Source: an uncultured Gammaproteobacteria bacterium
Lineage (GTDB): Bacteria > Pseudomonadota > Gammaproteobacteria > SZUA-152
Length of the DNA stretch: 40,602 nucleotides
Assembly (NCBI GenBank): GCA_913009875.1
Contig: CAJVYS010000017.1
Coordinates: 1 to 40,602, forward strand
Direction of reading: 5' to 3'
Part shown: positions 1 through 28,536 of the stretch, in pieces
Numbering within the stretch: the first letter of the stretch is position 1
Layout: every line of letters begins with the position of its first letter
Made by a program: the position numbers and the translations under genes
Notes under the pieces: generated by a model
What the model was told of the DNA's origin: nothing
Databases searched by the model: none
What the model saw: the letters and a program-made list of their open reading frames with translations, nothing else

Positions 1-106
1 TCAGACAATGCAGCTATCATGATACATTGTTTTTTTTTTTCAAGCAGAAGACGGCATACGAGATATATCAGTGTGACTGGAGTTCAGACGTGTGCTCTTC
101 CGATCT
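1..106. other. Illumina adapter read-through (not genomic)
   Basis: Positions 41-64 match the Illumina P7 flow-cell sequence, 65-72 look like an 8-base index (reverse complement ACTGATAT, which I recall as a TruSeq index), and 73-106 match the TruSeq read-2 adapter, ending CTCTTCCGATCT. Positions 30-40 are a run of 11 T and 1-29 are unassigned sequence. Read on the minus strand, this is the order expected when a read passes through a short insert: insert, adapter, index, P7, poly-A, then junk. Genomic sequence begins at 107. The match is from memory of the adapter sequences but is essentially exact. Confidence 0.97.
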
Positions 107-25229: not shown

Positions 25230-25234
25230 CGCTG

Positions 25235-25265
25235 GTACTCCATCAAGTTTATATTGATGGAGTAC
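25235..25265. repeat. 12-bp hairpin after argF related to the 27310 element
   Basis: Perfect stem GTACTCCATCAA/TTGATGGAGTAC with a 7-base loop. The outer sequence (TACTCCxTCAAG and GGAGTACTAG) is shared with the ends of the 288-base element at 27310-27597, so this may be a minimal relative of it. It may also serve as the argF transcript end, but there is no T-run. Confidence 0.75.
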
Positions 25266-25311
25266 TAGTGGCGCCCCAGGCCGCCGCGCCTCTGTTATCA
25301 TCCTCCGCGCG

Positions 25312-26380: not shown

Positions 26381-26434
26381 TTGTGCGCACGGCGCACACT
26401 ACACCTGCCCGTAGCGTGCGCTGTGCGCACGGTG
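26381..26434. repeat. Inverted repeat family E copy 2
   Basis: GTGCGCACGGCGCACACTAC followed by GTAGCGTGCGCTGTGCGCAC: the same GTAGxGTGCGCyGTGCGCAC unit as at 11426-11540, but with the two copies arranged outward rather than inward. It lies at the convergent junction between the ABC ATPase and the cytochrome gene. Confidence 0.8.
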
Positions 26435-26493
26435 GCACTGAAGGTAGAACCCGGTAAAAGGCTTTTTGGTTTTTTTGGGTTAAAAATACCCGG

Positions 26494-26553: not shown

Positions 26554-27222
26554 TCAGAGGCCGGACAGATACTCCGACACCGCGATGATTTCCTCATCGG
26601 TCATACCCTGCGCCACCATGGCCATCATGCTGGCCGGATCATTGGTGCGGGTACCGGACTTGAAGTCCTTGAGCTGCTTGATCAGGTAATCCCTGGTCTG
26701 TCCGCCAATCACGGGGAACAGCGTGTTCTTCTTGTCCAGGCCCTTGCCCTGCTTGCCATGGCAGCGGATGCAGGCGGCAAAATCGCCCAGTTTCTTGTTG
26801 CCGCTCAGGTACACCTTCTCGCCCTTTTTGGCCAGTTTGGCATCGCCCGGCGTACCCTTCATCATCTTCAGGCTGGCATAATAAGCAGAGATATCCTTCA
26901 GATCCTGAGCCTCGGTCACCATGCCGGCCATGGCACTCATGGTATCGTCGTTACGGTTGCCCAACTGGAAATCCAGCGTTTGCTTGAAGATATAGCCCGC
27001 ATACTGGCCCGCCAGGTGCGGGAAGGTGGTGGGATCGATGCTCATACCCTCGGCACCGTGGCAACCGCCACACATCTCGGCCTTTTCCTTTCCGGCTACC
27101 GGATCGCCTTCGCCATCACGCATGCTGCCGGCAATGTTCTTCTCCGCTGCGTAAGCTCCCCCCACACTCATCATCAAGGCAATGAGCAGTACAACTATTC
27201 CTATTCCGCTTCTTTTTGTCAT
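26554..27222 (-). CDS. Di-heme cytochrome c, c4 type
   Basis: 222-aa periplasmic electron carrier. Signal peptide about 1-26 (IGIVVLLIALMMSVGGAYA), then two cytochrome c domains with heme sites CGGCH (51-55) and CIRCH (151-155). Likely methionine ligands lie in the DDTMSAMAG and DPASMMAMVAQGM stretches. Length and two-domain layout match cytochrome c4, which passes electrons to terminal oxidases in many gammaproteobacteria. It is monocistronic, with its own terminator. Its upstream region contains the 288-base inverted-repeat element. Confidence 0.92.
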   Translation of the reverse strand: MTKRSGIGIVVLLIALMMSVGGAYAAEKNIAGSMRDGEGDPVAGKEKAEMCGGCHGAEGMSIDPTTFPHLAGQYAGYIFKQTLDFQLGNRNDDTMSAMAGMVTEAQDLKDISAYYASLKMMKGTPGDAKLAKKGEKVYLSGNKKLGDFAACIRCHGKQGKGLDKKNTLFPVIGGQTRDYLIKQLKDFKSGTRTNDPASMMAMVAQGMTDEEIIAVSEYLSGL

Positions 27223-27309: not shown

Positions 27310-27597
27310 AGTACTCCGTCAAGGTAGTATCGACGGGTTCAGCGCCACAGGGAAGTTATCCTGCACGACGCGCTTTCGAAGGCATAGTGGGCCTACGTCA
27401 AGAAAGCGCACCAACAGTAGGCGCTTTAGGCGACACCGCAGGACGGCTTCCCTGTGGCGCCCAGAGGGCTTGGCTGTCTGCGCCCACGGACTGCGTTGCT
27501 TTTTCTCGATTTGGACCCACCAAGTCTTCGAAAAAACGCCTTGCCGTGAACGCAGACAGCCAAGCTGAACCCGTCGATACTACCTTGACGGAGTACT
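27310..27597. mobile_element. 288-base multi-hairpin element with 34-base perfect terminal inverted repeats
   Basis: Ends 27310-27343 and 27564-27597 are exact reverse complements over 34 bases (AGTACTCCGTCAAGGTAG...). Inside are two further arm pairs: 27342-27364 with 27438-27460 (20 of 23 matching, GCGCCACAGGGAAG) and 27468-27482 with 27551-27565 (15 of 15, GCTTGGCTGTCTGCG), plus a small AAGCGC/GCGCTT stem in the middle. There is no coding capacity. Structured like a MITE or a folded non-coding unit. The 27598-27873 remainder holds no recognised feature. Confidence 0.75.
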
Positions 27598-27873: not shown

Positions 27874-28536
27874 ATGACCAGAAAATTGCTCTTTGCCCTC
27901 TGCCTGTTACTGTTGGGCGGCAACGTCTATGCAGAAACAAAATATGTTGTCGACCAGATCGTCATCACCCTGCGCTCAGGACAGTCCAACCAGCACCAGA
28001 TACTCCGCACCCTGCCCAGCGGCACAAAGATGGAGGTGCTGGAAACAAGCGACAAATACAGCCGGGTGCGCCTCACCGACGGCACCGAGGGCTGGGTGCT
28101 GAACCAGTACATGACCGCAACCCCCATCGCCAAACACCGATTGGCGTCAGTGCAGAAAAAACTGGCCGGGCTGGAAGCGGAAAATATCCGTCTAAAAGAA
28201 GAACTGGTGGCCGCCAGCAGTAAGGAGGGCGACATCAGCACGCAGTACGCCAAGCTGAAAAAGGCCGATGAGAAACTCAACGAAGAGCTCGACCAGCTGC
28301 GCAGCGTCGCCGCCAAGCCCCTGCAACTGAAAAATGAAAACACCCGGCTGAAAAAAGCACTGCTGGATATTGAAAACGAGCACGAACTGGTGCAGCAGGA
28401 AAACCAGATGCTACGCGACAGCGCCGAACGCGAGTGGTTTCTCACTGGCGCCGGAGTCATCATCCTCGGCATCATCCTTGGCCTGATCGCCCCCAGCCTG
28501 CGACCACGCAAAAAGTCGAGCTGGAGTTCACTGTAG
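27874..28536 (+). CDS. SH3-domain membrane protein, YgiM-like (TIGR04211 type)
   Basis: 220-aa envelope protein. Signal peptide about 1-20 (KLLFALCLLLLGGNVYA), bacterial SH3 domain about 22-85 (ITLRSGQSNQHQILRTLPSG...GWVLNQYM), coiled coil about 90-185, and C-terminal membrane anchor about 190-210 (LTGAGVIILGIILGLI) ending in basic residues. This is the layout of E. coli YgiM, whose role is not firmly known. The stop codon TAG lies inside a family A hairpin. The upstream ribosome site is not evident. Confidence 0.88.
   Translation: MTRKLLFALCLLLLGGNVYAETKYVVDQIVITLRSGQSNQHQILRTLPSGTKMEVLETSDKYSRVRLTDGTEGWVLNQYMTATPIAKHRLASVQKKLAGLEAENIRLKEELVAASSKEGDISTQYAKLKKADEKLNEELDQLRSVAAKPLQLKNENTRLKKALLDIENEHELVQQENQMLRDSAEREWFLTGAGVIILGIILGLIAPSLRPRKKSSWSSL

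Follow-up and report, generated by a model that had tools for sequence, protein, structure and literature searches.

The analysis of the 40,602-nucleotide stretch of gammaproteobacterial DNA considered here (hereafter, the window) suggests that the 288 bp folded element lying at positions 27310-27597 is a non-autonomous MITE of the IS630/Tc1-mariner type, a reading to which we assign a probability of about three in four. As far as could be found, the gene-less mobile-DNA family to which it belongs was previously unnamed; the literature, searched both by sequence and by topic among open-access papers, gave no description of it.

Structure and copies of the element

The left arm of the element (27310-27343, plus strand) and the right one (27564-27597, minus strand) are complementary at 34 out of 34 positions. 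If the two outer bases are considered target-derived, the left end reads CGA|GTACTCCGTCAAGG..., and the right end is followed by AG, giving ...GTACTAG. Two inner pairs were found, that is, 27342-27364/27438-27460 (87% pairing) and 27468-27489/27544-27565 (91% pairing). The DNA fold of the element strand has an energy of -110.8 kcal/mol vs. -49.0 +/- 3.7 for shuffled sequences (z = -16.5, with none of 100 shuffles as good), and the corresponding RNA fold gave z = -16.9. Two ORFs of 127 and 128 aa run across the element, and both are read as incidental, no gene-like content being seen. Hence, the arm complementarity, the fold energies and the ORF check bear out the first-pass annotation, which had described a cloverleaf-like fold with perfect 34-base ends and no gene. 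Short, bounded by 34-bp terminal inverted repeats and devoid of coding capacity, the element resembles a MITE in each of these respects. It is located in a divergent intergenic region, since its left neighbour, which reads in translation as a cytochrome c gene (26554-27222), is on the minus strand and its right neighbour, which reads as a gene for an SH3-type membrane protein (27874-28536), is on the plus strand.

The element used as a BLAST query against its own genome gave 24 matches, and the end motif AGTACTCCRTCAAG (with at most one mismatch) occurs 33 times in this genome vs. none for the reversed control. These include four long copies of 267-313 bp and short copies of 33-37 bp, in which the outer palindrome alone is retained. 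One of the short forms is located 3' of argF (25232-25268, 37 bp, CTGGTACTCCATCAAGTTTATATTGATGGAGTACTAG) and is absent in six congeners; the idea that this hairpin carries the outermost sequence of the 288-base element was thus confirmed, over a slightly different extent, and the multiple copies of both sizes support the proposed family with short and long forms. The BLAST searches of the element and of its ends against the genome and its relatives also mean that the situation named beforehand as speaking against a mobile family, i.e., a single copy with no empty sites, is not the one observed. Searches for a plasmid, phage or viral spread of the element gave no matches.

The short forms (CTAGTACTCCATCAA-GTTTATATTGATGGAGTACTAG) may have arisen by deletion between two copies of a direct repeat, CCATCAA or TTGATG, that both ends of a long copy contain. 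At one short-form site (L046), decayed copies are found in G001 and G005 and the copy has apparently been lost in G003, so that the short forms are passed on and erode. In the related genome G011, about 58 matches to the end pattern were found, many of them at contig ends, as expected of near-identical copies. G002 harbors a separate subfamily with another outer stem (CTAGTGTGGTGTAACG), and all 15 fetched copies are alike from CTAG on and preceded by unrelated DNA. Another copy (C29) is 81% identical overall to that of the window and has its own, different and perfectly paired ends. A stretch of G005 (L122, 611-1670) carries two different half-ends of the family, 1059 bp apart, around a 323-aa ferredoxin-reductase-like gene; its interpretation as a 1059-bp composite around the reductase gene was rejected, since the half-ends do not match each other and there is no transposase.

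Two other features of the window were recorded. About 40 bases at 26400-26443, directly after an ABC-transporter gene, are a separate dispersed repeat with dozens of matches, mostly at 86-97% identity, in this genome and its sister genomes. The minus-strand ORF at 40-1158 terminates (window 40-100) in RKSTRLNSSHTDISRMPSSA, which we take to be a translated Illumina adapter, so that the start of the contig is probably adapter contamination.

Insertion sites, age and the candidate transposase

At the locus of the window element, the DNA is uninterrupted in G003, G004, G005 and G006, whereas the congener G002, whose flanks are 84-88% identical, harbors a remnant of about 27 bases, in which 18 bases of the right end are exactly preserved. 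The insertion most likely predates the split between G000 and G002, and the presence of a remnant at the same site argues that it is not recent in spite of its perfect ends. The suggestion that perfect ends imply recent movement is therefore not supported, in view both of this remnant and of the C29 copy, which has diverged to 81% identity while possessing perfectly paired ends of its own.

Dispersed copies with empty sites, a further attribute of MITEs, were found at other loci. The clearest case is the C42 copy, where the filled site GGG-CTA|GTGGTCT...AGACCAC|TAA-GGACC corresponds to the empty site GGGCTAAGGACC (GGG-CTAA-GGACC) in G003, the other relatives having TTAG (G001 and G002) or CTAG (G005). 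The C29 site is GA-TCAG when empty, in three relatives, vs. GA-CCAGTACT...AGTACTAG when filled, and a copy of G018 (L343) corresponds to an intact CTAG at the same site in G023. The simplest common reading of these sites is an insertion at TA (C-TA-R) with TA on either side. C42 and L343 fit a TA target with a 2-bp duplication; the junctions of the window copy (CGA/TAG), of the C29 copy (CCAG/CTAG) and of several siblings are not clean. A count of mirrored TAs over 56 elements gave no information, as palindromes contain mirrored TAs in any case. A strict 4-bp CTAG duplication was discarded, since neither the C42 nor the C29 empty site is consistent with it. One element of G180 (L421) has TT in place of TA at both borders, which is reminiscent of the few AA/TT insertions reportedly observed for ISY100.

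The search for a transposase, in which 17 genomes were screened for the DDE_3 domain (PF13358) and then for inverted ends, resulted in one element (L489), belonging to G011, a genome of the same taxonomic family. It spans 1248 bp and has perfect 33-bp ends (CTAGTACATCGACCAGTTTATATTGACGGATAG) around two ORFs of 161 and 206 aa, which match positions 2-109 and 130-298 of the IS630 transposase profile (DDE_3 match, E 4e-28; NCBIfam IS630 match, E 4e-39). The ends of three copies of our family are identical to the L489 ends at 27 (L006), 28 (L025) and 29 (L379) of 33 positions, none of 500 shuffles being as good. Those of the window element reach 24/33 (2 of 500 shuffles as good; 23-24/33 for the left end alone, 27310-27343, plus strand), and the ends of some copies, including the abundant ones of G011 itself, match L489 no better than shuffles do. 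The transposase of L489, split as it is over two ORFs, may be decayed, which makes the autonomy of this element uncertain, and H, the hairpin described below, is absent from it. The sought transposase with homologous ends was found in a related genome, but no IS630 element carrying such ends was detected in that of the window. Moreover, no PF13358 transposase was detected in seven genomes that are rich in H and nearly complete (G038, G048, G080, G099, G106, G153 and G180), implying that the mover there is absent, diverged or different.

This last finding, together with the insertion of MITEPsy1 at CTAG or YTAA with a 4-bp duplication (PMC3189936), is what might be expected if the family were a MITE of another DDE family targeting CTAG or YTAR, such as the IS5 family suggested for MITEPsy1. 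We consider this improbable, because the C42 copy, with CTAG on its left and CTAA on its right, is predicted by a TA duplication and not by a 4-bp one, and because a search covering the PF13358 family yielded a single transposase with homologous ends, which is of the IS630 type. For IS630 elements, insertion at TA and duplication of this target are documented (PMC2170065), and the same paper refers to studies of a CTAG preference. According to the IS630-type reading, which we prefer, the 33-35 bp terminal inverted repeats would serve as binding sites for the transposase, by which the element would be excised and then inserted at TA, preferentially within CTAG, with duplication of the TA. We infer that members of the IS630 enzyme family moved these copies.

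The conserved hairpin H

Both inner arms represent the same hairpin, H, present once in each orientation. Arm A (27344-27458, plus strand) has its 3' side split by a 22-nt insert, named M, and gives a partial match to R1, the model of H, at 27370-27410 (20.3 bits, E 6e-4), while arm B (27470-27563, minus strand) is matched at 27481-27551 on the minus strand (53 bits, E 4e-14). According to the comparison of the folded copies, the arms are joined by a linker mini-hairpin (27459-27469), GCCCAGAGGGC here and CCCGAAGGG in other copies. When 19 long elements were folded, nearly all of them exhibited the same order, that is, outer stem, arm, linker mini-hairpin, arm and outer stem. Each arm consists of a long variable stem, an AA bulge, a GGC helix, a 7-bp variable helix, a GCA/AA internal loop, a short helix with its tip, and an AAC bulge on the returning side.

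In an alignment of 23 cores, changes on both sides were found at 21 of 27 pairs, with 142 double-change cells vs. 44.8 in shuffled data. The 136 distinct cores retrieved with R1 gave 879 such cells vs. 225, with 90.7% of cells paired (33-46% once slid); since this larger alignment was fitted to the model, that of 23 cores is the cleaner covariation test. Among the mismatches, G.T/T.G (353) largely exceed A.C/C.A (43, 23 of which fall in one column), a skew that may be somewhat inflated by the acceptance of G.U by the model, and conservation reaches 95-99% at the unpaired A, A and AAC and at the loop A. The tolerance of G.T far above A.C points to selection on one strand; neither the mismatch skew nor the conserved unpaired bases are predicted by an equal use of both strands or by a mere palindrome correction.

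The last of these possibilities deserves attention. A hairpin-templated (quasipalindrome) correction occurring during replication might keep the pairing without selection in an otherwise inert repeat, and it would account both for the perfect ends of an old insertion and for the double changes in the stems. Nevertheless, such correction should erase the bulges too, yet AA, AAC and the loop A stay at 95-99%, and it does not predict the G.T excess; as a full explanation it seems unlikely to us. It is compatible with an IS630-type MITE, and both can operate together. Somewhat less probable is the idea that the main role of the element is that of a structured RNA gene, or of a cis-regulatory RNA, with incidental mobility: the covariation, the conserved unpaired bases and the mismatch ratio do favor a function exerted by one strand, but copies occur at unrelated loci and are absent at orthologous sites of close relatives, old copies (L323 and L324) lose pairing, and no Rfam family was matched (the sole hit, mir-498, is due to chance, with 22.6 bits vs. 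a cut-off of 85). Hence, of the three possibilities listed in the first-pass annotation (MITE, structured RNA or recombination target), the MITE is supported by copies, empty sites and IS630-type ends, and a structured nucleic acid by the covariation, as far as the inner arms are concerned.

On the basis of its conservation, H would function in a folded, single-stranded state, formed either by the RNA of read-through transcripts or by DNA made single-stranded during replication, and this state might help the element to persist or spread. Between the ends of the MITE lies a conserved structured pair, H(+) followed by H(-) and joined by the mini-hairpin, and, the pair being inverted, either strand of the element holds one H in the selected orientation. 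Tentatively, and with less than even confidence, we propose that H is a structured nucleic-acid module of a portable kind, which some factor of the host or of the transposon reads as a single folded strand (RNA or ssDNA) and which MITEs with many different ends have long carried across Gammaproteobacteria, its inverted pairing allowing both strands to supply a functional copy.

The distribution of H is wide. R1 detected it in 23 out of 24 genomes of the taxonomic family, with at least 61 H in the own genome, and in 56 of the 185 sampled Gammaproteobacteria genomes (about 30%), representing 54 genera. H+/H- pairs recur about 104 bases apart inside outer stems of differing sequence, mostly starting with CTAG (CTAGTACTC, CTAGTGTCC, CTAGTGTAGTG, CTAGTACATC, CTAGGGAAAC and CTAGTGGGCC); single-arm elements with the same end type also occur (L379).

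The inverted hairpin pairs resemble REPINs, which raises the question of whether we are dealing with REP/BIME-like elements moved by RAYT (Y1 HUH) transposases, the hairpins being single-strand substrates of the tyrosine transposase. RAYT-type genes are common in these genomes (the own genome has 16 Y1_Tnp matches), and they are found in 47 of 56 H-positive vs. 76 of 129 H-negative genomes. However, H was near none of 30 RAYT loci, the repeats beside RAYTs, where present, represent different and unrelated types (e.g., GGGTCAGG), and nine H-positive genomes have no RAYT match, including G070 (100% complete, 8 H) and G121 (22 H). Furthermore, the elements are about 270 bp long, with long inverted ends and TA junctions, and are not 20-40 bp GTAG-tagged units. 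A RAYT partnership, which we regard as very unlikely, was therefore rejected, on the grounds of the missing linkage to H and of the H-positive genomes without RAYT. One RAYT gene (L160, 1380-2600) lies between inverted GGGTCAGGTCTAGCAAAGTAGCA repeats and tandem arrays.

Some arms, arm A of the window among them, carry the M insert. The motif M (TCGCCTAAAGCGCCTACTGTTGGTGC) is at 27408-27433 on the minus strand, as revealed by a with/without comparison against the copy L002, and is present in many gammaproteobacterial genomes; the insert proper consists of 22 bases, CCAACAGTAGGCGCTTTAGGCG on the plus strand, at 27411-27432, where it precisely separates the two A residues of the bulge (L001 vs. 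L002). In one copy (L114, 606-919), both bulges of one arm contain it, and in two others (L116, 566-812, and L132, 674-920) the core flanked by two M copies has been lost, which suggests that M copies recombined with each other. A 26-base core containing the insert is present in 117 or more stretches of publicly available genomes, mainly those of Methylobacter and relatives, where it is embedded in another repeat. In methanotrophs and others (L189, L192, L232 and L184), M lies within a different repeat, CTCGGCAACTGCTCCTGCG-M-TCTACCTCCTGCAT.

Relation to known repeat families

The RUP elements of Streptococcus pneumoniae, a MITE of IS630-Spn1, resemble the window family in being short and non-coding, with inverted ends in common with an IS630-family element and a TA target (PMC2229807); they differ in their length (107 bp) and in their 9-bp terminal inverted repeats, the window family having about 270 bp, ends of about 35 bp and two inner hairpins conserved across the class. 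ERIC, YPAL and NEMIS/Correia are likewise palindromic intergenic repeats with strong RNA folds, with TA termini in ERIC and NEMIS (PMC2229807). Going by their descriptions, they differ in length and architecture, and no description of an inverted covarying hairpin pair with conserved internal loops was found for them. MITEPsy1 of Pseudomonas syringae is also a MITE found at CTAG/YTAA, but with a 4-bp duplication, IS5-like ends and a length of 100 bp (PMC3189936). Lastly, REP/REPIN/BIME sequences share with the window family the inverted pairs of imperfect hairpins, from which the latter differs in having no RAYT linkage, a much greater length, terminal inverted repeats and TA junctions.

Bacterial MITEs are usually viewed as IS ends plus degenerate filler. 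In this family, conservation is instead highest in the filler, a covarying hairpin whose internal loops are fixed and which usually occurs as an inverted pair, in 54 genera of one class, so that why some MITEs succeed becomes a testable question, and the model R1 could annotate many unnamed intergenic repeats. What distinguishes this family from the known ones is the conserved inverted H pair common to MITEs with different ends.
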